Of a DNA stretch of 49,449 nt, positions 7,138 to 47,444 are shown in pieces (the stretch's first letter is position 1; each line of letters opens with the position of its first letter). A program made the position numbers and the translations under genes. This DNA comes from an uncultured Lentisphaerota bacterium. GTDB taxonomy: Bacteria > Verrucomicrobiota > Lentisphaeria > Victivallales > UBA1829. The DNA is taken from assembly GCA_900320095.1 (NCBI GenBank), contig ONQZ01000012.1, positions 1-49,449 of the forward strand, read 5' to 3'. The notes under the pieces were generated by a model. That model made no database searches. It had not been told where the DNA came from and worked only from the letters and a program-made list of their open reading frames with translations.

Positions 7138-7170
7138 CCTCGATTCCGGAATGAAAGAACGATCATTGAT

Positions 7171-7300
7171 GAAATCTGACCGAATGAAATCGTGAAATCT
7201 GACCGAATGAAATCGTGAAATTTGACCGAATAAAAACGCGAAATTTGACCGAATAAAAACGTGAAATTTGACCGAATGAAATCGTGAAATTTGACCGATT
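7171..7300 (+). repeat. 23-bp iteron array upstream of the AAA ATPase gene
   Basis: Five full direct repeats of exactly 23 bp start at 7171, 7194, 7217, 7240 and 7263, with a partial sixth at 7286. The core is GAAATTTGACCGA (or GAAATCTGACCGA), followed by a more variable 10 bases. No unique spacers are present. The last unit ends GACCGAT, and six bases later the -35 box TTGAAA begins. The same arrangement recurs at 8657. Confidence 0.95.
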
Positions 7301-7305
7301 CGTAC

Positions 7306-7333
7306 TTGAAAAGTTGAAAAAAGGAGTTATATT
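7306..7333 (+). promoter_or_regulatory. Promoter of the AAA ATPase gene, abutting the iteron array
   Basis: TTGAAA at 7306-7311, a 16-bp spacer, and TATATT at 7328-7333. The ATPase ATG is about 34 bases downstream, with AAGGAGG a few bases before it. The distance from the last GACCGAT of the array to the -35 is 6 bp, identical to the second array. Confidence 0.75.
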
Positions 7334-7366: not shown

Positions 7367-8644
7367 ATGAAACGCAAGGATTACAAACCGCGCCTGATCG
7401 ACCGGCAGGTCGAGGATTTTCTGACCGCAATGGGAGCCGTCGTCATTGAAGGTCCCAAGTGGTGCGGAAAAACGTGGACTTCCGCTCAGCACAGCGGCAG
7501 TGAGTTCTACGTGGGGAGTCCGGATGGAAATTTCCAGAACAAGCGTCTCGCGGAGCTTTCCCCGGAAAAGGTCCTGGAAGGCAAATCGCCACGGATGCTG
7601 GACGAATGGCAGGAAGTCCCCGCGCTTTGGGACGCGGTCCGCGCCGAGGTGGACAGACGCAATGCAAAGGGGCAGTTCATTCTGACCGGGTCCGCCACGC
7701 CGAACAGGAAGGGGATCCTCCACAGCGGAGCCGGAAGGATCGGCCGGATTCGGATGCGTCCAATGACCCTGTACGAATCGGGCGCATCATCGGGCGAGGT
7801 TTCCCTGCGCGAACTGTGTATCGGCGAAGAGTTCCCGACCCGGATGAACGAAGCTGTTTCCCTGCAGCATCTCGCGGAGCTTCTTGTCCGTGGCGGATGG
7901 CCGGGCAATCTTCAGGTCCCGGAATCCTCGGCGGGGATCCTGGCGAAGGAATATATTACGGCGCTCCTGGAAACGGATGTGTACCGGGTGGATGAAAAGA
8001 CGCGGGATGCGCACAAGATGAACCTGCTTCTGCGGTCTCTGGCGAGAAACGAGAGCACCACGGCGTCCCTCTCCGTCCTGAAAAAGGATATCGGCGGCGT
8101 GGACGGCGAAACGATCGACGATGACACGATTTCGGCTTATCTGGACGTTCTGAGGCGGCTTTTCCTGCTGGACAACCAGTTGCCGTTTGCTCCTGCGGCC
8201 CGCTCGTCGATCCGCATCAAACAGGCGGAAAAACGCCATCTCGCCGACCCGTCGCTGGCATGTGCCCTGCTCAAAATGACGCCGCAGGGGCTGATCAACG
8301 ATTTGAACACCTTCGGGTTCCTTTTCGAGGGAATGTGCATCCGGGATCTGCGCGTCTATGCCAATTCGTTCGGCGGAGAGCTGTACCATTATCAGGACTA
8401 CAGAGACAACGAATTCGACGCCGTGGTCGAACTGCCGGACCGGAGCTGGTGCGGCTTCGAAGTGAAACTGGGCGCGCATCAGATCGACGATGCGGCGGCG
8501 AATCTCCTGCGCATCAATGCGGCGATCAGGACGGCCGGAGGCAATCCGGCTTCCCGCCTCGTCGTGATCTGCGGCCTCAGCAACGCGGCCTATCTGCGTC
8601 CGGACGGCGTGTACGTCGTCCCGATTACCATGCTGAAACCGTAA
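7367..8644 (+). CDS. AAA-family ATPase with DUF4143 C-terminal domain
   Basis: A 425-residue protein of the AAA_14/DUF4143 family (COG1373). Walker A is GPKWCGKT at 29-36 and Walker B is RMLDEWQ with D79/E80. A sensor-like LTGSATP segment and an arginine-rich GRIGRIRMRPMTLYE strand follow, typical of the family. The C-terminal third has the restriction-endonuclease-like pattern of DUF4143: DYRDNEFDAVVEL followed by GFEVKLG, which reads as D-(E)xK. The cellular role of this family is poorly defined. Context is unusual: 23-bp iteron arrays lie both upstream and downstream, the latter driving a Sel1 lipoprotein. It is the only local candidate for a protein that reads the iterons, but no DNA-binding domain is recognised, so that link is inference. 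Confidence 0.9.
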   Translation: MKRKDYKPRLIDRQVEDFLTAMGAVVIEGPKWCGKTWTSAQHSGSEFYVGSPDGNFQNKRLAELSPEKVLEGKSPRMLDEWQEVPALWDAVRAEVDRRNAKGQFILTGSATPNRKGILHSGAGRIGRIRMRPMTLYESGASSGEVSLRELCIGEEFPTRMNEAVSLQHLAELLVRGGWPGNLQVPESSAGILAKEYITALLETDVYRVDEKTRDAHKMNLLLRSLARNESTTASLSVLKKDIGGVDGETIDDDTISAYLDVLRRLFLLDNQLPFAPAARSSIRIKQAEKRHLADPSLACALLKMTPQGLINDLNTFGFLFEGMCIRDLRVYANSFGGELYHYQDYRDNEFDAVVELPDRSWCGFEVKLGAHQIDDAAANLLRINAAIRTAGGNPASRLVVICGLSNAAYLRPDGVYVVPITMLKP

Positions 8645-8656
8645 ACACGAGTTCGT

Positions 8657-8720
8657 GAAATTTGACCGACTGGAATCGTGAAATCCGACCGATTGAAATC
8701 GTGAAATCCGACCGATCTGC
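8657..8720 (+). repeat. Second 23-bp iteron array, upstream of the Sel1 lipoprotein gene
   Basis: Three units start at 8657, 8680 and 8703, again with an exact 23-bp period. The cores are GAAATTTGACCGA or GAAATCCGACCGA. The last GACCGAT lies 6 bp before the -35 TTGAAA, the same geometry as in the first array. Confidence 0.93.
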
Positions 8721-8722
8721 GC

Positions 8723-8751
8723 TTGAAAAACGAAAGAATGGAAGTTATATT
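8723..8751 (+). promoter_or_regulatory. Promoter of the Sel1 lipoprotein gene, abutting the second iteron array
   Basis: TTGAAA at 8723-8728, a 17-bp spacer, and TATATT at 8746-8751. The surrounding text closely resembles the ATPase promoter (CTTGAAAA ... GTTATATTAT), which suggests that the array plus promoter was duplicated as a block. Confidence 0.75.
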
Positions 8752-8784
8752 ATCCGCAGAACGGCAAAAAAAGGATGCAATACG

Positions 8785-10128
8785 ATGAAATTCAAGCCCC
8801 GCCTGTCCATGTTTCTGCTGACCGGCATGTTTCTGCTACTGTCTTTTTTTGCGTCGTCGTGTTATTATTCCTGGTCCATGTCCGGTGAAGGCTACGAGGG
8901 CGGCCATGTTTATCTGGTGAAGGTGCCCGGGCGATGCGTGGATTACGATTACTTCGAATCGCAGGATCCGCTGGATTACCTGAGGAAAACGGATTTGCTG
9001 TATGCCTATGATCAGGATTTTTCCGGATATGAGGTGTCAAGCGAGCGGTATCAGGCCAGTTTGGAAACGTATGAGGAGTTGAACTCGCAGGGGTATTCGG
9101 TCGGCGGCAAAGGCGACGGCATGATCTGGGACAGGGAGGAAAGAAAAGTGATCCGTTTCGCGCTTCCTCCGGGGACCTTGTTCCGCGTGACGCATTTCCG
9201 GTGGAATATGGACACGGAGACGAAGATTTATGCCGATGTCTTAAACGGTCCTTTGGCCGGAAAGGAAATCGAGGTGGGTGGTCTGGGCACGTATTTTCAT
9301 TACCCCGACGGCATAGACGATCTGTTCGAGTATCCCGCCGGGCGGACGCAGCCGTTCTGGCTGGAGGAAGACCTGTTTTATGTTGTTTTGGACCCGGATG
9401 TCGTGCAGGACCTGGGCAGGCTTTCGGACGAGGAACTGAAGGCGAAAGGGCTTTGGCTGGAACCGGGCACGGAGGCGGCGAAAGCCGTCGTAAAACAGCT
9501 CCCGGAGGGGATCGACCTTGAGCGGCTGCAGAAAGACGCGGAGAACAACGACGTCGCCGCGCTGATTCAGCTGGGCAAGCTCTATTACGAGGGCGCCGGA
9601 GTCAGGAGAGACCGTGCCATGGCTGAGTATTTGTTCCAGAAAGCCGCCGCCCAAGGAAGCAGTGAGGCCGAAATCCGGCTGGCCATTGTCCGCGCGGGTG
9701 ATTTTTGGGGAACGCAGAGGGCGGCGGTGGAAGACGTCTTCCGGAAACACGCGGAACAGGGCGAAGTCGAAGCGCAGTTCTGCCTCGGTCTCCTGCTGGG
9801 GTACAAAGGAAACAGGAACAGATGGAATCCCGATTCGGTCCTGTGGTATCAGAAAGCCGCCGATCAGGGAGATGCGCGGTCGATGCGGGCGCTCGGGATG
9901 TTTTATGCGACGAGCGAACGACCTGAAATGGCGGCGGAATGGTTCCGGAAAGCGGCGGAGCTTGGCGATTTCGCCGCCCAGCGGAACCTGGGGCATCTGT
10001 ACCTCAGGGGCAAAGGCATGAAAAAGGACAAGGCCGAGGCGCGGAAGTGGCTGGAAAAGGCCGCCGCCCAGGGTGATTCCTATGCACAAGAACTTCTTGC
10101 CGAATCTTTCCCGGATTCCGAAAAATAG
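8785..10128 (+). CDS. Sel1-repeat lipoprotein
   Basis: A 447-residue protein with a lipoprotein signal (hydrophobic stretch then FFASSC, lipid cysteine C26). A roughly 250-residue N-terminal part of unknown fold follows, rich in Tyr, Asp and Glu. About five Sel1-type TPR repeats make up the C-terminal part, recognisable as AxxQGxxxAxxxLGxxYxxGxGVxxD variants and WYQKAADQGDARSMRALG. Sel1 repeats form superhelical protein-binding scaffolds; no enzymatic function is implied. The ATG at 8785 was chosen because AAGGA lies 10 bases upstream and it starts the signal peptide; the longer in-frame start at 8662 would run through the iteron array. Its promoter carries the same iterons as the upstream ATPase, so the two are probably co-regulated. 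Confidence 0.85.
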   Translation: MKFKPRLSMFLLTGMFLLLSFFASSCYYSWSMSGEGYEGGHVYLVKVPGRCVDYDYFESQDPLDYLRKTDLLYAYDQDFSGYEVSSERYQASLETYEELNSQGYSVGGKGDGMIWDREERKVIRFALPPGTLFRVTHFRWNMDTETKIYADVLNGPLAGKEIEVGGLGTYFHYPDGIDDLFEYPAGRTQPFWLEEDLFYVVLDPDVVQDLGRLSDEELKAKGLWLEPGTEAAKAVVKQLPEGIDLERLQKDAENNDVAALIQLGKLYYEGAGVRRDRAMAEYLFQKAAAQGSSEAEIRLAIVRAGDFWGTQRAAVEDVFRKHAEQGEVEAQFCLGLLLGYKGNRNRWNPDSVLWYQKAADQGDARSMRALGMFYATSERPEMAAEWFRKAAELGDFAAQRNLGHLYLRGKGMKKDKAEARKWLEKAAAQGDSYAQELLAESFPDSEK

Positions 10129-14543: not shown

Positions 14544-14640
14544 GTGGCGTTGCGTAGCAAGCCACTACTTCAGTCCAGGACTTGTCCTGGTGCGCAAGCG
14601 AAGCTGAGCGCACTACTTCAGTCCAGGACTTGTCCTGGTG
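14544..14640 (-). repeat. Family A composite hairpin repeat at the DUF362 gene end
   Basis: An exact 30-bp sequence occurs twice (14563-14592 and 14611-14640), 48 bp apart. Each holds the hairpin CCAGGAC-AA-GTCCTGG and the linker ACTGAAGTA. The two copies alternate with GTGC...GCAC-type hairpins (14587-14612 and 14544-14565). The stop codon and last few codons of the DUF362 gene lie inside the first minus-strand copy. Confidence 0.85.
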
Positions 14641-15749
14641 TCGAGGTCGATGAGCTCGTACTGGTCGGTGCCGAATCCGATTTTCAGGGCGTGGTCCACG
14701 GTGACGCGCCAGCGGGTGTTGTCGTGCGCGTCGTTGAAGACGTCGTTTCCGTGCCCGCAATCGTCCATCCAGGAGCCCTGCAGGCGCGGCATCTTGTTGC
14801 AGAGGTCGCAACATGCCACGTCGAGCGCGACGGGGTCGAATCCGGCGAGCATGCCGATGTCGGGGATGATCGGGGCATCGTTTTCGGAATGGCAGTCGCA
14901 GTTCGGCGAGACGTCGCAGATGAGGCTGATGTGGAAACTCGGCTTGCCGTTCACGACGGCGGCGGCGTATTCGGCCATCTTCTCGTCGAGCGGCTCGGTG
15001 GACTTCGCCATGGAGGCGTGGATGGCGTCGACGGGGCACACGCTGAGGCAGCGTCCACATCCGGCGCAGGCTTCGCGGTCGAGCGACATCTTTTTCGCGG
15101 CGGCATCGAAATGCAGGGCGTTGTTCGCGCACTGTTTGAAGCACATTTTGCAGCCGATGCAGAGGTCGCGGTCGAGCTCCGCCTTGCCGTCGCTGTGCAT
15201 CGCCATTTTTCCCGCGCGCGAGGCGCAGCCCATGGCGAGGTTCTTGATCGCGCCGCCCATGCCGGTCAGCTCGTGGCCCTTGAAGTGGTTCAGCGTGACG
15301 ATCACGTCCGCATCGGAGATGGCGCGGCCGATCTTCGCGGTCTTGAAGTGGACGCCGTTCGGGACGGGGAGCTCGACCTCGTCGTTGCCCTTCAGCCCGT
15401 CGCCGATGATCACGTGGCAGCCCGTGGTGAGAGGGCCGAATCCGTTGAGGTCGGCGGTCTCGAGGTGCTCCAGCGCGTTCTTGCGGTAGCCCGGGTAGAG
15501 CGTATTGCAGTCGGTCAGGAACGGTTTTCCGCCGCGCTGCTTCACGAAATCGGCGACGACCTTCGCGTAGTTCGGGCGCAGAAACGCCAGGTTGCCGAGC
15601 TCGCCGAAGTGCATTTTGATCGCGACGAACTTGTCGCGCAGGTCGAGCGTCTCGAATCCGGCTTTCGCAATCAGGTTGTGGAGTTTGTCGGGCAGGGGCG
15701 CGCCGTACATTTTCGTGCGGAAGTTGCAGAAATAGATTTTCTCGGGCAT
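14613..15749 (-). CDS. DUF362 domain protein with two [4Fe-4S] ferredoxin motifs
   Basis: A 378-residue protein. The DUF362 part spans most of the sequence (KIYFCNFRTKMYG..., KMHFGELGNLAFLRP, VTLNHFKGHELTGMGGAIKNLAMG). Two ferredoxin cysteine clusters are inserted at about 195-245: CIGCKMCFKQC and CAGCGRCLSVCPVDAI. DUF362 proteins are presumed redox or iron-sulfur proteins of uncertain function. The ATG at 15749 has GGAG six bases upstream; longer starts to 15860 are unlikely. The C-terminal residues TRTSPGLK are encoded by a family A repeat that also supplies the TGA stop, so the natural end may have been altered by repeat insertion. A promoter lies at 15804-15831. Confidence 0.9.
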   Translation of the reverse strand: MPEKIYFCNFRTKMYGAPLPDKLHNLIAKAGFETLDLRDKFVAIKMHFGELGNLAFLRPNYAKVVADFVKQRGGKPFLTDCNTLYPGYRKNALEHLETADLNGFGPLTTGCHVIIGDGLKGNDEVELPVPNGVHFKTAKIGRAISDADVIVTLNHFKGHELTGMGGAIKNLAMGCASRAGKMAMHSDGKAELDRDLCIGCKMCFKQCANNALHFDAAAKKMSLDREACAGCGRCLSVCPVDAIHASMAKSTEPLDEKMAEYAAAVVNGKPSFHISLICDVSPNCDCHSENDAPIIPDIGMLAGFDPVALDVACCDLCNKMPRLQGSWMDDCGHGNDVFNDAHDNTRWRVTVDHALKIGFGTDQYELIDLDTRTSPGLK

Positions 15750-15972: not shown

Positions 15973-16212
15973 CATTTGCGCGTCTCGCGGTTAAGTATAA
16001 AGTTGCCGAGCGCAAGCGAGCCTACCACAATCCTAAAAAACTCTGCCGTTCGCGTCTCTGCGGTAACAATATGCTGTCGAGCGAAGGAAGGCCACTGCAA
16101 TCCGTAAAACTCTGCTGTGCGCGCCTCGCGGTCAAATAAAAAGATGCCGAACGAGAGCGAGGCTACCACGGCGGCGAAGCCGCCCCCAGCAACGCGGGGA
16201 CGCATTGCGTCC
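15973..16212 (+). repeat. Family B repeat cluster, left side of island 1
   Basis: Three tandem units of about 70 bp begin near 15978, 16051 and 16119. Each unit reads GCGCGTCTCGCGG (or a variant), an A/T-rich spacer, then a CGAGCGCAAGCGAG-like core and a CTACCAC-like tail. The last unit is followed by hairpin GGCGGC-gaa-GCCGCC (16170-16184), CCCC...GGGG, and hairpin GGACGC-att-GCGTCC (16198-16212). The hairpin end points toward the island genes. Confidence 0.85.
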
Positions 16213-16362
16213 TTATTCTCTCTGAAAGAGCGGAAAAAACTAAAAAAAGCAGAAAAACCGTTTGATTTTTCTCCGTTCGCATGTAAATTGTGTTTTTGGA
16301 GTCGCTTTCCTGTTCTTCGGGAATCCGGTTCCAAGCTCATTCTATCGGTTATTTCAGCAAAA

Positions 16363-16501
16363 ACACATGTAAACCCGCCAAGTTTCAAACATTTTTGCCC
16401 AAGAATACGAAATACACCAGCAAGGACCATTGTGTCTTCAAGTCTTGCTGGGCGTATCTCTGTCGTTTCTTGGGCAGGTTCTTGGCGGGACCTACATGTG
16501 T
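16363..16501. repeat. 139-bp interrupted palindrome with four nested stems
   Basis: Perfectly matched arms, from outside in: ACACATGTA (16363) with TACATGTGT (16493); CCGCCAAG (16375) with CTTGGCGG (16481); TGCCCAAGAA (16396) with TTCTTGGGCA (16467); CCAGCAAG (16417) with CTTGCTGG (16444). Internal loops are unequal (3/4, 13/4 and 11/15 nt) and the apical loop is 19 nt. The three inner left arms share a CCnnCAAG-like word. It could be a structured RNA, the end of a mobile element, or clustered binding sites. Confidence 0.85.
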
Positions 16502-16628
16502 GACGTACGGGGATTCGTCCGGCTTTTTTGTACTCAACCGTCAAGAATTCTGAACTTGACGTTTGCAATCAAAACCGCCCGCATCCTCAAAAGTTGGAAA
16601 ACAACAACACAAATGAAGAGGTCAGGCT

Positions 16629-17990
16629 ATGGAATTCAAGATCGAGTGTCCCTGGTGCAATCAGCATTATTCCGTTGATGATTCGTTCATCGGGCAAAAT
16701 GTCGAGTGTTCCGTTTGTGGAAAACAGTTTATAGTCAATAAGCCAACTGTTTATGCTCAGGCAATAGAAAAAACAACAGAATACTCCACAAATCAGTCAC
16801 ACACCCCGGAGAAAAAAGTTTTTGCGTTCAAAAATAATACTCGAAAAGTTCTCATTGGCTGCGCTGTCCTTGTGGTCGTCGCGGTTTCTATCTGTGTCGT
16901 TTGCTATATGAGATACATCCCGGAAAAAGAATACAAAAACGGCATCAAAGCGTATAATGAACAACGCTACGAAGAAGCTGTCGTTTTTTTTCAAAAAGCA
17001 GCTGAACATGGACATGAAGAGGCAAAAAACAAATATAAAAAAACATTAGCAGAAATCAGCTGCAATAAAGGAAAAAAAGCATTTGTTGAGCATCGTTATG
17101 CAGAAGCAGTTGAATATCTTCAGAAAGCAGCGGATTTGGGGCATTCGGATGCACAGGTTTTACTCGGATTGTGCTATTATAATGGAGAGGGGATTATAAA
17201 AAACTCTGATGAAGCTGTTATATGGTTTCGCAAAGCCGCGGAACAAAACAATCTGCAAGCACAGTATCGGTTAGGATTGTGTTATTTGGTGGGGATAGGA
17301 GTTAATCCCAGAGAGGAAGAAGGGCTTTATTGGCTTCAAAAAGCAGCTGAACAAGGAAATCTTGAATCACGGGTTGCTTTAGGGGATTTTTATTACAATA
17401 AAGGCAAGACATTGGAGAATTACTCCGAGGCTCTAAAATGGTATCAAAAAGCAGAAGAAACTGGGATGATCTCGGATGAGACAAAGGAAAAAGCTCTGAT
17501 GTGTATAACATTCCAAAATGCATATAATGGAGATGACGCTTCACAGCTGGCAGTATTTGTTGCTTATGAGGGAGAATTGTTTGGTCTTAAAAAAGATGAA
17601 ACTGAGGCTAAAAAGTGGTTGGTCTTATCTGCGGATGCAGGGAATCCTAAAGCTCAAAGACATCTTGGTGATATGCTTATGCATAGCGGTGAAGAAAAAG
17701 AGGGGTTAAAATGGTTAGAGAAGGCTGGTGAACAGGAAGACCTTGATGCGATGGTACTCCTTGCGAATTATTACAAAAATAAAATTGATGAAGTATATAA
17801 AGACTCTACTTCTTCATCTTCTATTGGTAGAATTGTTGCTGCAGATTTGTATCGTGAAAAAGCAATAAAATGGGCGAATAAATATAATGCAGGGATTTCG
17901 CAAGTCATTCGGCAGGCAGTAGAGGCCGCCTTCTCGGAAGAGGAAACTGTCGACAAAGACGAACAAAATAGCATAAACACTGATGAGTAG
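16629..17990 (+). CDS. Zinc-ribbon, single-TM, Sel1-repeat protein
   Basis: A 453-residue protein. An N-terminal zinc ribbon of the MJ0042/zinc_ribbon type uses C7, C10, C27 and C30 (CPWC ... CSVC). A single membrane segment lies at about 74-94 (VLIGCAVLVVVAVSICVVCYM), after which come TPR/Sel1 repeats to about 420, then an acidic tail. With no signal peptide, the zinc ribbon is likely cytoplasmic and the repeats outside or in the periplasm. The gene is clearly AT-rich compared with its GC-rich neighbours, with A/T-ending codons, which suggests recent transfer. It lies in the repeat-bracketed island and is convergent with a Ser/Thr kinase, sharing a bidirectional terminator. Function is unknown. 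Confidence 0.85.
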   Translation: MEFKIECPWCNQHYSVDDSFIGQNVECSVCGKQFIVNKPTVYAQAIEKTTEYSTNQSHTPEKKVFAFKNNTRKVLIGCAVLVVVAVSICVVCYMRYIPEKEYKNGIKAYNEQRYEEAVVFFQKAAEHGHEEAKNKYKKTLAEISCNKGKKAFVEHRYAEAVEYLQKAADLGHSDAQVLLGLCYYNGEGIIKNSDEAVIWFRKAAEQNNLQAQYRLGLCYLVGIGVNPREEEGLYWLQKAAEQGNLESRVALGDFYYNKGKTLENYSEALKWYQKAEETGMISDETKEKALMCITFQNAYNGDDASQLAVFVAYEGELFGLKKDETEAKKWLVLSADAGNPKAQRHLGDMLMHSGEEKEGLKWLEKAGEQEDLDAMVLLANYYKNKIDEVYKDSTSSSSIGRIVAADLYREKAIKWANKYNAGISQVIRQAVEAAFSEEETVDKDEQNSINTDE

Positions 17991-18052
17991 GAGAAAGAAC
18001 ACAATGTTTCCATGGGGTTGATCAATTTGGATTATTCTTCAAAAAGATGAAA

Positions 18053-18091
18053 GCCTGCTCCACACAAAACTGAAGCAGGCCTTCTTTTTTT
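18053..18091. terminator. Bidirectional terminator between the Sel1 and kinase genes
   Basis: GCCTGCT (18053) pairs with AGCAGGC (18074), with CTTCTTTTTTT on the plus strand. On the minus strand the same stem is followed by TTTCATCTTTTT. It serves both convergent genes. Confidence 0.8.
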
Positions 18092-18107
18092 GAGAAAAGA
18101 TTGTTAC

Positions 18108-19025
18108 TTATTGTCTAGTTACATCTTCGTATATTTGCAGGAAATGATCTAAAATATCATTGGGGTGGGGACGTTTTGAGTAATCTAAAGAAAGCATTGC
18201 TCTTATTGAGTTAAAAACAAGGCCTCCATGTTTGCCTGCATCCTTAATAAAACCGATCTTGTTTAATGTTACTTGAGATTTTATATCACCGGGAACAAGA
18301 GGATTTTCACCAGTAAACATTTCTGCAAGTACTAAGCCTAGCTGAAAAACATCTGATTCAATATGCAAGGTATCTTTTCTATTTGCAAAGTTAACCAGCT
18401 CCGGCGTTCTATAGAAATGGGGCATTGCAACATACCCGTCCTCTCCATGGGTTATGCTGTCATTAAGACATTTTATGTCATCTTCAATTTGAGATGGGTC
18501 ATCACTGGATAGCTCTTTCATTAAGCCAAAATCTCCCAAAATAGCGTTATGATTGTCTATAAAAATATTACTAGGTTTTATATCTCGGTGGATAATATTT
18601 CTATCCCGCAAAAAAATAAGAGCATTAAGAAGAGTGCATGAAAACAAGATTTTTTCCCTAAAATCAATACTATCTTCTCTTATGCATTTTTCCAATGTGT
18701 CCGGCATATAATTTGTAATGATAAAAGGGTATGTGGTGTTATTGCTTTCCAAATGATATTCACCCGAGTCATGATGTCTTACAATAGAAGGATGGGCAGT
18801 AGTTTTCAGAAAATTCGCTTCTCTGTTAAAACGCTCTATCCTCTTAGCTGATGAAAGGTTATATAGTATCTTTGCAACAAAGGATAACCCTCGACAAGCT
18901 CCGGACGTACAAACAACAAGATATGAGATTGCGTTTCCTCCAATACCGAGATTCCTATGAACCTGATAATAGTTCTCTGTTTCCGATTTGAGAGATTGAC
19001 CAATTCTGATAGCACTTCTAATCAT
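18108..19025 (-). CDS. Stand-alone Hanks-type Ser/Thr protein kinase
   Basis: A 305-residue kinase domain with no PASTA repeats and no membrane segment. Key residues are present: the glycine loop GIGGNAIS at 27-34, catalytic K52 in VAKIL, probable E69, the catalytic loop HRDIKPSN (D148, K150, N153), and DFG at 165-167. TPEL replaces the usual APE, and SDVFQLGLVLAEMFTGENP is the canonical helix F region. It should therefore be active. GGAGG precedes the ATG. The gene is AT-rich like its island partner. Substrates are unknown; the neighbouring zinc-ribbon/Sel1 protein is the obvious one to test. Stand-alone bacterial kinases occur in some defence loci, but nothing else here supports that. Confidence 0.92.
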   Translation of the reverse strand: MIRSAIRIGQSLKSETENYYQVHRNLGIGGNAISYLVVCTSGACRGLSFVAKILYNLSSAKRIERFNREANFLKTTAHPSIVRHHDSGEYHLESNNTTYPFIITNYMPDTLEKCIREDSIDFREKILFSCTLLNALIFLRDRNIIHRDIKPSNIFIDNHNAILGDFGLMKELSSDDPSQIEDDIKCLNDSITHGEDGYVAMPHFYRTPELVNFANRKDTLHIESDVFQLGLVLAEMFTGENPLVPGDIKSQVTLNKIGFIKDAGKHGGLVFNSIRAMLSLDYSKRPHPNDILDHFLQIYEDVTRQ

Positions 19026-19095
19026 TTCATTCCTCCATTGTTATCTAGTTCTTAATATATTGGCGATAAAAACAGCTTATGCTGTCTTTTGTTTA

Positions 19096-19123
19096 AATAT
19101 AGCATATGGAAAAAACGAGTCAA
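19096..19123 (-). promoter_or_regulatory. Promoter of the Ser/Thr kinase gene
   Basis: On the minus strand, TTGACT at 19123-19118, a 16-bp spacer ending in ATGC, and TATATT at 19101-19096. It is about 70 bases upstream of the ATG. Confidence 0.75.
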
Positions 19124-19263
19124 ATAAGAATCACAAATTTGTTTGATGTATTTGAACTTACATGCTTATATTTGTTCTATAGAATTGGTTCGAATTAAGT
19201 CAAAAAGATGGTCTATGAATAAATGTGTTTTTTTTAAAAATCTGTATTCAACTGGTTTTTAGA

Positions 19264-19405
19264 TGGACCGCTTCGCTGGGGGCTCGCATTCGCGAGCCTC
19301 GGTAAGCTCGCTTGCGCTCGACATGTTATTATTACCGCGGAGGCGCGAATGGCTGAGTTATTTTGATTGGGGAAGGAGCATATTTCCCTGACCGCGAGGC
19401 GCGAA
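19264..19405 (-). repeat. Family B repeat cluster, right side of island 1 (inverted)
   Basis: Read on the minus strand this matches the left cluster. Near the island is a truncated GGAC, then CGCTTCGCTGGGGG, hairpin GGCTCGC-attc-GCGAGCC (19281-19298), CTCGGTAAGCTCGCTTGCGCTCG, an A/T-rich spacer, and ACCGCGGAGGCGCGAA. A second ACCGCGAGGCGCGAA unit follows at about 19391. The outer hairpin GGACGC/GCGTCC is missing here. The hairpin end again points into the island. Confidence 0.8.
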
Positions 19406-39839: not shown

Positions 39840-42383
39840 ATGAGACATTTGTTTCAGGTGGGCGGGATGCGCTGCGCGTCCTGCCAGGCGCACGTGGCGA
39901 AGGCCGTGAAGGCGGTCCCCGGCGTGCAGAATGTTGAGGTGAATCTGATCACCGGGCGCATGACCGTGGAGACGGACGACGCGCCGGACATGCCGCAGAA
40001 GATCGTCGACGCGGTGAAAAACGCCGGATTCACGGCGGAAATCGTGGAGGAAGCGCCCGCGCCTGTCGCCGTCGAACATTTGTTTCTGGTGGGCGGGATG
40101 CGCTGCGCGTCCTGCCAGGCGCACGTTGCGAAGGCCGTGAAGGCGGTCCCCGGCGTACAGGATGCCGAGGTCAATCTCGTGACCGGGCGCATGACCGTGA
40201 AGTGCGACAACGCGCCGGATATGCCGCAGAGGATCGTCGACGCGGTGAAAGATGCCGGATTCACGGCTGAACAGGTGAATGAAGCGCCCGCGCCCGAGGC
40301 GGCTCCCGAACAGGAAACGGCCGGGCAGGCGAAATCCGCCCCGAAGAAGGCACCGGCCGCCATTCCCGATCCCAGCCGCGAGCTCTTCCGCCAGTTCGTA
40401 TGGTCGGCGATCCTGATGCTTCCGCTCATGTACGTCGCGTTCTCCTCCATGCACGGCTGGCTGAAGGATTATCCGCTCGACGCCGCCTGGCTCCAGCTCG
40501 TTCTCGTGATTCCGCTGCTGTTCGTGAACCGCGTGTATTTCGTCAGCGGCGCGCGACGGTTCCTGAAGCTGTCGCCGAACATGGATTCGCTCATTATGCT
40601 CGGGTCCGGCGCGAGCGTGCTGTACAGCCTCGTGATGACCGGGGAAATGCTGCTCGGAAAGATGCAGGGGGACGCCGCGCGCGTGACCGAGGCGGCGGGC
40701 AACCTGTATTTCGAGACGGCGGGCATGATCCTGGTGCTCGTGACGTTCGGGAAATACTTGGAGGCGCGGGCGAAACGCCGCACGACGGACGCCGTGTCCC
40801 GCCTGATGAACCTGTCGCCGAAGACCGCGGTCGTCGTCCGCGGCGAAAAAGAAGTCGAGATCCCGGCGGACGAACTCGCCGTCGGCGACATTGTGGTGAT
40901 CCGGCCCGGTTCGTCGATTCCGGCGGACGGCGTGGTCGTGAGCGGAAACGGCACCGTGGACCAGTCGAGCGTGACCGGGGAGAGCGTCCCCGCGGGCAAG
41001 GAGCCGGGCGACCGCGTGGTGAGCGGGACGATGAACGTGAACGGTTCGTTCCGGTTCCGGGCGGACCGTGTCGGGCGCGACTCCACGCTGTCGCGCATCA
41101 TCCAGCTCGTGGAGAGCGCGTCGAACTCCAGCGCGCCGATCTCGCGTTTCGCGGACCGCGTGAGCGGCGTTTTCGTGCCGGCCGTGCTGGTCGCGGCGCT
41201 CGCGGCGGGCTGCTTCTGGCTGTTCGTGGAGCACCAGACCGTGTATTTCTCGCTGACGACCGCGATCGCCGTGATGGTCATCAGCTGTCCGTGCGCGCTC
41301 GGACTCGCCACCCCGATCGCGATCATGGTCGGCACGGGCGTCGGCTCCAAGTACGGCATCCTGTTCAAGAACGCCGCCGCGCTGGAGGAGTTGCACGCCG
41401 TCAGGACCATCGTGCTGGACAAGACCGGGACCGTGACCGAGGGGCGGCACCGCGTGACCCGCGTGGTGACGCTGACGCCGGACGGTGCGGAAGCCGGGGC
41501 AGGGGAGGCGGAGTTTCTGAAGATTGCCGCGCCGCTCGAATCGAAGTCGGAGCATCCCTTCGCGCGCGCTGTCGTACAGTACGCGCAGGAACACGGCGTG
41601 ATTGTGTCGGATGCGAGCGTGGAGGATTTCTCCGCGACGCCCGGGATGGGCGTGTCCGGCACGGTCGGCGGCGTCCGCTACGTCTGCGGCAACGCGCGCC
41701 TGATGGAACGCGAGGGGATCGCGCTGGGCGCGCAGGAACCCCTGATCCGCGAACTCGAATCCGGCGGCCACAGCCTGCTCTTCATGGCGGACCGCGACGC
41801 GAAACAACTCCGCGCCGTCATGGCGCTTCGCGACACCGTGAAGGACGGCAGCGCGGACGCCCTGCGCGCGCTCCATGAACTCGGCCTGAAGACCGTGCTG
41901 CTGACCGGAGACACCGAGGTCTCGGCGAAAGCCGCCGCGTCCGAGCTGCGGATCGACCGCGTGATCGCGGGCGTCCTGCCGGACGGCAAGGAGGCGTGCA
42001 TCCGCGAGCTTCAGCAGGACGGTGCGAAGGTGGCGATGGTCGGCGACGGCATCAACGACGCGGCCGCGCTCGCACGGGCGGACGTCGGGATCGCCATCGG
42101 CGGCGGCACGGACATCGCGATGGAGACCGCCGACGTGGTGCTCCTGCGCGGCGACCTGCGCGACGTGGTGACTGCCGTCCGCCTGAGCCGCGCCGTCATG
42201 CGCAACATCCGCCTGAACCTCTTCTGGGCGTTCTTCTACAACGTGCTGGGAATCCCGGTCGCGGCGGGCGCGCTGTATCCGTTCTTCGGGTGGCGCCTGC
42301 ATCCCATGCTCGGGACGGCGGCGATGGCGTGCAGTTCGCTCTTCGTGGTGACGAATGCCCTCCGCCTGCGGAAATTCCGCTGA
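39840..42383 (+). CDS. Copper-type P1B ATPase with two N-terminal HMA domains
   Basis: An 847-residue membrane pump. Two heavy-metal-associated domains start the protein, each with GGMRCASC (C12/C15 in the first). Next come the eight-helix membrane domain with the CPC motif (VISCPCALGLATP), the actuator SVTGESVP, phosphorylation site DKTGT, and hinge MVGDGINDAAAL. CPC plus these motifs indicates Cu+ (or Ag+) export from the cytoplasm. The HMA domains are almost identical at DNA level with a period of 231 bp, indicating a recent in-frame duplication. An 11-bp inverted repeat lies just after the stop. No CopZ or CueR gene is in the window. Confidence 0.94.
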   Translation: MRHLFQVGGMRCASCQAHVAKAVKAVPGVQNVEVNLITGRMTVETDDAPDMPQKIVDAVKNAGFTAEIVEEAPAPVAVEHLFLVGGMRCASCQAHVAKAVKAVPGVQDAEVNLVTGRMTVKCDNAPDMPQRIVDAVKDAGFTAEQVNEAPAPEAAPEQETAGQAKSAPKKAPAAIPDPSRELFRQFVWSAILMLPLMYVAFSSMHGWLKDYPLDAAWLQLVLVIPLLFVNRVYFVSGARRFLKLSPNMDSLIMLGSGASVLYSLVMTGEMLLGKMQGDAARVTEAAGNLYFETAGMILVLVTFGKYLEARAKRRTTDAVSRLMNLSPKTAVVVRGEKEVEIPADELAVGDIVVIRPGSSIPADGVVVSGNGTVDQSSVTGESVPAGKEPGDRVVSGTMNVNGSFRFRADRVGRDSTLSRIIQLVESASNSSAPISRFADRVSGVFVPAVLVAALAAGCFWLFVEHQTVYFSLTTAIAVMVISCPCALGLATPIAIMVGTGVGSKYGILFKNAAALEELHAVRTIVLDKTGTVTEGRHRVTRVVTLTPDGAEAGAGEAEFLKIAAPLESKSEHPFARAVVQYAQEHGVIVSDASVEDFSATPGMGVSGTVGGVRYVCGNARLMEREGIALGAQEPLIRELESGGHSLLFMADRDAKQLRAVMALRDTVKDGSADALRALHELGLKTVLLTGDTEVSAKAAASELRIDRVIAGVLPDGKEACIRELQQDGAKVAMVGDGINDAAALARADVGIAIGGGTDIAMETADVVLLRGDLRDVVTAVRLSRAVMRNIRLNLFWAFFYNVLGIPVAAGALYPFFGWRLHPMLGTAAMACSSLFVVTNALRLRKFR

Positions 42384-42474: not shown

Positions 42475-42703
42475 TTTCGCGCCTCGCGGTACCAACGGGC
42501 AACCTCCTCCGTTCTCTATAAACTCTGGCATTCGCGTCTCGCGGTTAAGAAAAGATGAGCGAGCGCAAGCGAGCTTTCCGCTTCCTGAGTATTTCCAAAG
42601 TACCTTTGTTTTCGCGCCTCGCGGTTAAGAAAAGATGAGCGAGCGGAAGCGAGTTTTCCAAGGCGCGAAGCGCCCCCAGTGAAGCGTGGACGCGTCTGCG
42701 TCC
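42475..42703 (+). repeat. Family B repeat cluster, left side of island 2
   Basis: Units begin near 42475, 42531 and 42611 with TTCGCGCCTCGCGG (or CGTCTCGCGG). Two of them continue TTAAGAAAAGATGAGCGAGCG-AAGCGAG almost identically. The last is followed by hairpin GGCGC-gaa-GCGCC (42662-42674) and hairpin GGACGC-gtct-GCGTCC (42688-42703), pointing toward the island gene. Confidence 0.88.
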
Positions 42704-42753
42704 TTTCTTTGTTCTTAATCTCATAAATAATCTGAAAAAGGCGGAAATCGTGC

Positions 42754-42782
42754 TTGACTATCCCAAGTTCATGTGATAGATT
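42754..42782 (+). promoter_or_regulatory. Promoter of the island 2 gene
   Basis: TTGACT at 42754-42759, a 17-bp spacer, and TAGATT at 42777-42782. Confidence 0.6.
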
Positions 42783-42873
42783 ATTGTTCGGATACAAAAA
42801 AATGAACGGGTTGTTCCCCGCTTAACGTCCTGCATGCCCCCAACCGGCAACACCTATGGAGGAAAACTATACC

Positions 42874-43764
42874 ATGCAACAAACAAGCTCCAGTGAACCG
42901 AAGAAAAACAGAAAACGGAAATGGTTCAGGTCGTGCCTAATCGTATTCCTCGGATATCTTGCCGTTTCCCTCGTCATCGTCTGCTTGTTCGGCGGAAGCT
43001 GCACGATCTGGACGATCGGTTATATCTGGCCCCGAAGAGTCAAACTCGAAGACCGTCATTTCGAGCTGTCTCCCGATGGCCGCGAAATCGTTTATTCTTC
43101 CGTGCTGGGAATCTACCGAGAAGATCCCTTGGGAGGCAATTACATACGTTCAGATGGAGCGCATTTCAAGAAACGGATCCCGATGGACCCCGTCCCGGAT
43201 GGAATGTTCCTCTTTACGCTGGAAGTCAAGGAAGATCCGTCCCAGGAGAAAGCCAAGTCAAAAAGTGTCCCGACTTCAAAGTGGAGCAGCCCGGTCCCGG
43301 TGGATTATCTTTTTCCTTTCCTGCTGGATTCCATCGGAAGCGACAACCCCGTTCCCGATTACTATCACAACGTCTGGCCCGATGGCACCTTTCGCTTGAT
43401 CATTCATCCCGACGACCGGGATAAACTGTCACAGCCGTTTTGCGTTACAGTCTGGGATAACGGCAAAGCGTATCGTCGAGAGAGGTCCATCCTGGTATTC
43501 CCGCGTGGAAAAAAGGGAAACCGTTATGAGGTCTTGACCGCCAGAATATCCAACGAGGAGGATTCCATTCCCTGGTCGTATCATCGTGTTTTTGAGCTGC
43601 AGCCGTTCGAAGAGAAATTCAATGCCATCGCAAAAAAAGAAACAAGAGAAGACGGCGTGAAAGGCGGATGGTACCTTGTTGGCGGCGCAGTCCTTATGGA
43701 TATCGCGATGCTGCCCGCCGAGGTGCTGTACTGGGCCGGACGGTGGATCGTGCTTCTGTTCTAA
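42874..43764 (+). CDS. Hypothetical membrane-anchored protein of island 2
   Basis: A 296-residue protein. A basic N-terminus (PKKNRKRKWFR) precedes a membrane segment (about 23-43), a Trp/Asp-rich extracytoplasmic domain of about 200 residues and a C-terminal hydrophobic segment GGAVLMDIAMLPAEVLYWAG. That last segment faintly recalls the DxxxLP pattern at the end of YceK-type small lipoproteins, but no family is assigned. The ATG at 42874 was chosen because GGAGG lies 11 bases before it; the ATG at 42856 is part of that Shine-Dalgarno region. It is the only gene between two inward-facing family B clusters, and it has its own promoter. Confidence 0.65.
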   Translation: MQQTSSSEPKKNRKRKWFRSCLIVFLGYLAVSLVIVCLFGGSCTIWTIGYIWPRRVKLEDRHFELSPDGREIVYSSVLGIYREDPLGGNYIRSDGAHFKKRIPMDPVPDGMFLFTLEVKEDPSQEKAKSKSVPTSKWSSPVPVDYLFPFLLDSIGSDNPVPDYYHNVWPDGTFRLIIHPDDRDKLSQPFCVTVWDNGKAYRRERSILVFPRGKKGNRYEVLTARISNEEDSIPWSYHRVFELQPFEEKFNAIAKKETREDGVKGGWYLVGGAVLMDIAMLPAEVLYWAGRWIVLLF

Positions 43765-44082
43765 AACATATCAGGGGAATGAGCGAAATCCGACTGCCTG
43801 CTAAACACAAATTAGCCCCGTTCCGGTATAGATTGATTAACACCTGCCCTTGCACATCCCATGGGCGGTTTTGGACGCATTCGCGTCCCCGCTTCGCTGG
43901 GGGCGGCTATGCCGCCTCGGTAAGCTCGCTTGCGCTCATACATCTTTTTCTTTACCGCGAGGCGTGAACGGCAAGGTTTTTGGGGGATGAGGAGACAGAA
44001 GACCGTTTGTTTGTACCGCGAGGCGCGAACGTCAGGGTTTGTGAAAGAACCAGTATGTCCGAAGCGAAAAAAACACGCGTGT
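43765..44082. other. Non-coding right flank of island 2
   Basis: This is 318 bases between convergent gene ends, mostly occupied by the inverted family B cluster. A plus-strand ORF that begins here and runs through dnaG is an antisense shadow. Confidence 0.6.
43873..44034 (-). repeat. Family B repeat cluster, right side of island 2 (inverted)
   Basis: From the island outward: hairpin GGACGC-attc-GCGTCC (43873-43888), CCGCTTCGCTGGGG, hairpin GGCGGC-tat-GCCGCC (43902-43916), TCGGTAAGCTCGCTTGCGCTC, an A/T-rich spacer, and ACCGCGAGGCGTGAACGGC. A second ACCGCGAGGCGCGAACG unit follows at about 44015. It is the most complete inverted copy. Confidence 0.88.
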
Positions 44083-46809: not shown

Positions 46810-46901
46810 CGGCGTGGATTCTCCTTTTCCTAAAACCATTTTAAAGTAGCCCATTTTTCCGTTTTTTCCAGTCGATTTCCGCAAAAATGCGGAGGTTTTT
46901 C

Positions 46902-47033
46902 GTGCGCGAGCGGAGCCGCGCACTACCTCGGCACTGCTTGCAGTGTGCCGTGCTACGCGACGGCACGGGGAGGGGGGAGTGTGTTTTTCGTGCGCGAGCG
47001 GAGCCGCGCACTGCTTCAGCACTGCTTGCAGTG
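46902..47033 (-). repeat. Family A composite hairpin repeats after the response regulator
   Basis: On the minus strand, immediately after the TAA: hairpin CACTGC-AA-GCAGTG, linker CTGAAGCA, hairpin GTGCGCG...CGCGCAC. Then comes a hairpin GTGCCG...CGGCAC, a second CACTGC-AA-GCAGTG, linker CCGAGGTA, and a second GTGCGCG...CGCGCAC. The GTGCCGTGCTACGCGACGGC segment is also found at 47638. Confidence 0.85.
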
Positions 47034-47444
47034 TTAAAGGGTGACCGGTTTGCCGTCGAGCACGTCGCGGATGGCGCGCGTGAGCTTCGGCAGGCGGTGG
47101 GGCTTCGCGATGAACCCGGCGGCGCCATTGTCGAGGAGGTCCTGCACGGCGCCCTCCTGCACGAATCCGCTGGAAAGCAGGATCTTCGCGTCCGGGTCGA
47201 TGGCGCGGATCTGGTAGAACGTGCCGTGTCCGCCGAGGCGCGGCATGACCATGTCGAGCAGGACCAGGTCGATCTGGCTCGGGTTGTCGCGGTAGATGGC
47301 GACGGCGTCCTCTCCGTTCTCGGCGAGGAGGACGGAGTATCCGAGGTTCTGCAGCGCCTCGATCAGGAAATCCCAGACGGTTTCCTGGTCGTCCACGATC
47401 AGCAGGGTTTCGGTGCCTCTCGGCAATGCTTCCGGTTCAGTCAT
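47034..47444 (-). CDS. Receiver-only response regulator (CheY-like)
   Basis: A 136-residue single receiver domain. The acidic pocket is DD18-19 (LIVDDQE), the phosphoacceptor D64 (LVLLDMVMP), the switch serine at 91-92 (LLSSG) and the conserved K114 (IAKP). No output domain is present. It probably relays phosphate or acts by protein contact. No histidine kinase is nearby. The ATG at 47444 follows AAGGAAC; the 58 longer in-frame codons run through the promoter. The stop abuts a family A repeat. Confidence 0.93.
   Translation of the reverse strand: MTEPEALPRGTETLLIVDDQETVWDFLIEALQNLGYSVLLAENGEDAVAIYRDNPSQIDLVLLDMVMPRLGGHGTFYQIRAIDPDAKILLSSGFVQEGAVQDLLDNGAAGFIAKPHRLPKLTRAIRDVLDGKPVTL

Follow-up and report, generated by a model that had tools for sequence, protein, structure and literature searches.

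Introduction

Several described systems place accessory genes between repeats or at fixed sites. In integrons, a promoter and a fixed element stand upstream of variable cargo, and the recombination sites are folded; REP/RAYT and BIME elements are hairpin repeats in inverted pairs; and defence hotspots, with their conserved flanking genes, are fixed sites that hold different restriction or defence systems in relatives. In Acinetobacter, neighbouring pdif sites lie in inverse orientation. The pdif (dif) modules hold accessory genes between Xer sites, and their content is shuffled between replicons (PMC13141974, PMC6449649). Mobile insertion cassettes (MIC231, mic-qnrD) and transporter insertion sequences (IS) carry passenger genes between inverted repeats with no transposase inside (PMC3913671). 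Here we describe an AT-rich island in a contig from an uncultured rumen Lentisphaeria bacterium (ONQZ01000012.1 of assembly GCA_900320095.1; the whole analysed stretch of 49,449 nt is called the window), in which a Sel1-repeat gene and a protein kinase gene lie between two inward-facing arrays of a hairpin-rich repeat, family B. The island is one case of a genus-wide system, and comparison of related sequences gives good support to the view that such inserts act as exchangeable cassettes.

The locus resembles mobile insertion cassettes and transporter IS in its inverted repeats around passenger genes and the lack of a transposase inside. However, those elements end in short, well-defined repeats and usually duplicate their target, whereas here the ends are variable multi-hairpin arrays, a target duplication was looked for and not found, and many of the cassettes are headed by a conserved RNA. 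With pdif modules it shares modular accessory genes between sites, but pdif ends are dif-like Xer sites, mostly on plasmids, and the ends here appear as GC-rich hairpin arrays on chromosomal contigs. A promoter and fixed element before variable cargo, together with folded ends, are reminiscent of integrons; yet there is no cassette array, and the ends are inverted rather than in one orientation. Tyrosine recombinases are present in the genus genomes, IntI not being distinguished among them. The inverted pairs of hairpin repeats recall REP/BIME, although RAYT/REP elements were rejected as a candidate, since the Y1 transposase is absent from the window's genome and found in only 4 of the 13 genus genomes, mostly as fragments. 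Finally, fixed sites with differing restriction or defence systems are the mark of defence hotspots; unlike in these, the cargo at many sites of a single genome moves together with the repeat brackets and the RNA or is framed by them. The open-access papers searched held nothing on family B repeats or on the RNA, the nearest ideas being mobile insertion cassettes and dif modules.

Results

Layout of the island

The island is laid out as follows, in window positions (hp1 to hp4 are the hairpins of the repeat).

15977–16212, plus strand: left (5') repeat array, hairpin end facing the island; units at 15977–15991, 16049–16064 and 16118–16132; hairpins within 16146–16212 (hp1 16146–16163, hp2 16170–16184, hp3 16185–16198, hp4 16198–16212)
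16262–16289, plus strand: sigma-70-like promoter (TTGATT, 16 nt, TAAATT)
16302–16529, plus strand: structured RNA with a 5' hairpin, long P1 helix, P3-P5 arm, pseudoknot (16357–16363 pairing with 16392–16398) and conserved CGGCTTTTTT end
16629–17990, plus strand: cargo gene 1, a zinc-ribbon, transmembrane and Sel1-repeat protein of 453 aa, GC 0.397
18108–19025, minus strand: cargo gene 2, a protein kinase of 305 aa, GC 0.361
19268–19405, minus strand: right (3') repeat array in inverse orientation, hairpin end facing the island (hp3 19268–19280, hp2 19281–19298, hp1 19306–19322; units 19334–19349 and 19391–19405)

These coordinates, and the higher GC of the flanking DUF362 (0.628) and ABC-F (0.643) genes, confirm the description in an earlier note of AT-rich Sel1 and kinase genes between inverted repeat copies with their hairpin ends inward. 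The same note saw no transposase or integrase in the island, and indeed its proteins match Zn_ribbon/Sel1 and Pkinase in Pfam, and not recombinases; the stretch from the left array to the Sel1 gene, with its promoter and structured RNA, had been overlooked. An alignment of 84 distinct ends gave the repeat architecture: a TTCGCGYCTCGCGGTAA unit is followed by hp1, whose loop is GNRA-like, by hp2 (GGCGGC GAA GCCGCC, with compensated variants), by hp3 (CCAGC GAA GCGTGG) and by hp4 (GGACGC AAC GCGTCC), the last mostly at ends on the leader side. The arrays are GC-rich hairpins, and the number of units per end ranges from one to six.

Bracketed islands across the genus

The sample comprised 13 genomes of one rumen Lentisphaeria genus, on contigs from uncultured rumen Lentisphaeria, and the genome-wide statistics come from fetched loci selected by repeat motif. 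The genomes are incomplete and apparently all metagenome assemblies; that of the window (G000) is 92.7% complete. Within the window, matches to the short core motif by itself are no more frequent than expected by chance at three mismatches, whilst the whole genome holds 22 matches at one mismatch or fewer, against 0 for a reversed-pattern control. A second motif has 5 matches genome-wide against 1.4 expected. The core motif is common in most of the 13 genomes and sporadic beyond the genus.

Neighbouring array clusters less than 7 kb apart (n=73) are predominantly convergent (56, with 7 divergent, 6 ++ and 4 --), and the gap within convergent pairs is bimodal, at 9–190 bp in 10 pairs and 0.7–6.5 kb in 46. 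Every one of the 46 bracketed inserts has a lower GC content than its flanks (0.444 vs 0.607; Wilcoxon p = 3e-14), although two of them (L131, L137) are probably spurious single-motif pairs. The earlier note had suggested a search for further repeat-bracketed islands, and such islands were found, one of them in the window itself. The two patterns it had named as contrary to its view did not appear: no relative was found with the same genes and no repeats, and the repeats are tied to AT-rich inserts rather than unrelated to them.

The outer ends of the arrays, compared in 29 islands, have no common terminus; one apparent candidate, AACGTTAGGTTTT, proved specific to the ABC-F site. Target-site duplications showed no excess over mismatched controls in 43 islands (mean shared k-mer 6.70 vs 6.47).

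Fixed slots and changing contents

When islands are grouped by flanking sequence, recurring sites emerge whose contents differ. The C67 site has flanks 84–98% identical in six genomes and five unrelated restriction/defence sets: two HsdR_N/N6-methylase restriction–modification types, a type IIG enzyme, an HsdR_N protein, and GmrSD with ApeA. Three further sites show a similar change of cargo. At the ABC-F site, the Sel1 and kinase genes of G000 are replaced by a 441-aa/227-aa pair in G001, G002 and G004, by proteins of 444 and 148 aa in G005, and by a third set in G012. One cargo may also occupy several sites, as with a PDDEXK protein that is 85% identical at two of them, and a 267-aa protein at 87%.

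A 2106-nt block at the ABC-F site is common to G002 and G004, which belong to two species, with only 10 mismatches (99.5% identity), against 91.9% for the ABC-F gene of the same two genomes. Its edges lie at the 3' end of the RNA (CGTCCGGCTTTTTTGT) and at hp3; the 5' array and RNA of G002 are G000-like, and the 3' arrays of G002 and G004 differ. G010 combines sequence from two parents, one of the same site and one of another (0/2000 shuffles), and its breakpoint lies about 80 nt further on; at a fourth site (site D) the entire RNA differs between islands. The varying breakpoints favour homologous recombination, although the RNA end recurs.

A second island and empty sites

The window's second repeat-bracketed island (42476–44029) lies between a P-type ATPase gene and dnaG.

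42476–42703, plus strand: left array (units at 42476, 42531 and 42611; hp2 at 42662; hp4 at 42688)
42856–43764, plus strand: cargo, a putative membrane protein of 302 aa with no Pfam match
43873–44029, minus strand: right array

Its leader (42726–42793) has the promoter part only, ahead of the 302-aa gene. The bracketed gene is found here in G000, G005 and G002; in six relatives (G001, G003, G006, G008, G011 and G012) the site is empty, with 10–30 bp and no repeats, and in G010 an array adjoins dnaG with other open reading frames (ORFs) beyond. Elsewhere, convergent but empty array pairs stand at sites that are filled in other genomes (G010:C174, 17 bp; G003:C71, 123 bp). The earlier note had looked to an empty site joining the DUF362 region to the ABC-F gene, and this was found in no genome examined, the six empty sites being those of the twin island at dnaG. 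In G011, a restriction system lies between DUF362 and ABC-F without repeats. As side observations, the dnaG/ATPase site of G009:C40 (L176, 4630–8092) holds a 3.4-kb insert, apparently of three tandem paralogous ORFs, without family B repeats, and the start of the window's P-type ATPase gene, which has two HMA domains, contains a 219-nt direct repeat of 89% identity (39845–40294).

Cargo

Many inserts resemble phage-defence genes in Pfam and PADLOC profiles: fused HsdR_N-N6 methylases with specificity subunits, MmeI, a type IIG enzyme, GmrSD-HNH, ApeA, PDDEXK_4, an SspH-like FtsK protein and the kinase of the window, whose profile resemblance is to the defence kinases PD-T4-6 and MADS mad6. Other cargo comprises zinc-ribbon/TM2, Sel1, Lgt and T5orf172 proteins, or has no assignment. 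No transposase was found among the roughly 40 island proteins scanned, a subset of the ORFs.

The conserved RNA

The conserved stretch between the left hairpins and the first gene begins close inside the hairpins and consists of the promoter (TTGATT-16-TAAATT) and a pseudoknotted RNA of ~230 nt. The RNA is present in 21 of the 46 islands, and several further islands retain the promoter part only; the promoter is conserved in about 29 islands headed by the RNA and, in part, in islands that lack it. Covariation supports the fold: over 43 pairs in 29 sequences, 186 cells have two-sided changes against 60 when shuffled, and among 48 distinct sequences from the order the count is 472, against 135 shuffled and 46–117 slid, with 93.6% of cells paired against 35–44% when slid. 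The main pseudoknot helix, left out of the fitting of this second alignment, pairs in 97% of cells, and the window's copy folds with z = -5.6.

Matches to the RNA model occur in 65 of 120 relatives and 20 of 48 genera, with up to eight copies per genome and six in the window's own; across 289 genomes of the phylum the RNA is almost confined to this order. The motif had no match in IMG/VR, where we checked for carriage by phages. Outside the genus it precedes caspase+LRR, WYL, glycosyltransferase, trypsin-like, sigma-factor and Sel1 genes, and family B brackets are generally lacking there. In 16 of 16 loci the 1.5 kb that follow it have a higher AT content than the sequence around them. Covariance models of Rfam 15 gave no match to the RNA, their sole hit being an unrelated SAM-I/IV riboswitch (RF01725) in L241, a locus of another genus, at 2806–2917, about 1 kb from an RNA copy. 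With nothing in the open-access literature searched either, the family appears to be previously undescribed.

By inspection, some cargo genes apparently have their own promoter-like sequence 3' of the RNA, and the RNA may therefore be transcribed on its own instead of forming a leader; most likely, it acts as a separate small RNA or as an attenuator ahead of the cargo. Two other identities were considered and set aside. The order of the helices suggested a topology like that of the hepatitis delta virus (HDV) ribozyme, but on inspection (A1) the expected P3 hairpin is missing. A retron or other retroelement was rejected since the window's genome, with its six RNA copies, has no reverse transcriptase (RVT_1).

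Some further features of RNA loci were noted in passing. RNA-headed genes outside the genus often have long internal tandem repeats, LRR or autotransporter-like (L263, L265, L273, L275). In L244 (G007:C1), an RNA copy is closely preceded by a tyrosine recombinase gene of the same orientation and followed by an AT-rich gene. Many copies lie a few hundred bases from contig ends (for example G083:C96:6-225, G109:C41:21-207 and G020:C16:9124-9349), which points either to variation among strains or to assembly breaks at the RNA caused by repeats.

Other observations

Family A, a different set of paired hairpin repeats (GCACTGCTTCAGCACTGCTTGCAGTGT type), lies between core genes of the window at 2245–2317, 14560–14660 and 46895–47037, and similar repeats occur at the outer borders of some islands. 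Tandem 23-nt repeats (CGTGAAATTTGACCGAATAAAAA type) at 7145–7325 and 8654–8742 stand on either side of an AAA_14/DUF4143 ATPase gene (7367–8644), the second tract also preceding a Sel1 gene (8662–10128). In each of L160 (G002:C78) and L164 (G008:C156), typA has one in-frame stop, possibly an assembly error.

Discussion

We hold, with modest confidence, that the island is probably a cassette open to exchange, in a chromosomal slot that persists while homologous recombination replaces what it contains. The starting points are observed: the brackets and their orientation bias, the lower GC of the inserts, the different cargos of one slot and the different slots of one cargo, the near-identical cassette with its sharp edges, the empty sites and the RNA structure. 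The slot would be bounded by inward-facing arrays of the four-hairpin repeat, to which the 5' side adds the promoter and the pseudoknotted RNA gene, and DNA from related cells would replace the content between these ends. The common arrays and RNA could then serve as portable homology arms, and the cassette would need no recombinase of its own. We infer a RecA-type recombination as the agent of exchange and some route of DNA entry into the cell; the cargo may be retained for phage defence or surface functions. The earlier note had left the choice between movement of a cassette in trans and homologous insertion between pre-existing repeats. Cassette behaviour is well supported, and the evidence leans towards the homologous option because the arrays persist at fixed sites while the cargo changes, breakpoints vary, there is neither a target-site duplication nor a common outer end, and some convergent pairs are empty.

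Three considerations weigh against this reading. Firstly, the empty dnaG sites have no repeats, so whole units, repeats included, are also gained or lost, which is as compatible with a mobile element as with exchange by way of the flanking genes. Secondly, two of the three well-placed 5' breakpoints lie no more than a few tens of bases from the 3' end of the RNA, as a site-specific mechanism predicts, though selection against chimeric RNAs could also be the cause. Thirdly, repeats are where assemblers make false joins, and the junctions of the cassette shared by G002 and G004 lie at repeats in metagenome assemblies.

The first of these points bears on a non-autonomous transposon of the mobile insertion cassette or transporter IS type, with the arrays as ends for a transposase encoded elsewhere. 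Some transposon ends do carry multi-site binding arrays, which the arrays here resemble; the ends are inverted, no transposase lies inside, and the whole unit comes and goes at dnaG. We nevertheless consider such an element unlikely, given the lack of a common outermost end, with one to six units per end, the missing signal of target duplication and the absence of a transposase from the island proteins scanned.

Site-specific recombination in trans, by a tyrosine recombinase or in an integron-like manner, could use the hairpins or the 3' end of the RNA as its site; we regard it as rather more doubtful. The ends are rich in hairpins, the shared block has its exchange edges at the RNA 3' end and hp3, and tyrosine recombinases are encoded in 13/13 genomes, one of them adjoining an RNA copy in G007. 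However, these enzymes are equally present in 14/14 control genomes, the breakpoints shift in G010 and at site D, and inverted ends are unlike the single orientation of integron cassettes.

Could the RNA itself direct the exchange? The order-wide pseudoknotted RNA might be part of the machinery of a novel cassette-capture platform. As gene or transcript, it would mark and direct the joining of incoming AT-rich genes at its U-run 3' end, in the manner of the fixed site of an integron but RNA-based, and in this genus it would have become coupled to inward hairpin arrays that close the 3' side. We think this slightly less probable again, and offer it tentatively.

Passive insulators or terminators that accumulate around foreign AT-rich genes, with recombination in the core genes on either side as the only source of cargo change, seem very unlikely. 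The arrays are indeed GC-rich hairpins, and the whole-locus differences at dnaG could come from flanking recombination; but the G002/G004 block is near-identical only between the RNA end and hp3, with the arrays outside diverged, so the exchange happens inside the brackets. Chimeric contigs joined at repeats are scarcely credible as an explanation, for all that the genomes are apparently metagenome assemblies with some RNA copies near contig ends, as the same architecture recurs in independent metagenome-assembled genomes from several ruminants, inside contigs of 100–390 kb, and RNA covariation cannot arise from assembly.

The system described here would give uncultured rumen bacteria a way to rotate phage-defence and other accessory genes through fixed slots. 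As its ends are recognisable by sequence, the cargo pool of the whole order may be mined. It also adds a large and strongly supported family of pseudoknotted RNAs that is absent from Rfam 15, and the constant position of this RNA ahead of changing AT-rich genes raises a question of its own: does it regulate newly acquired genes, or does it help to acquire them?

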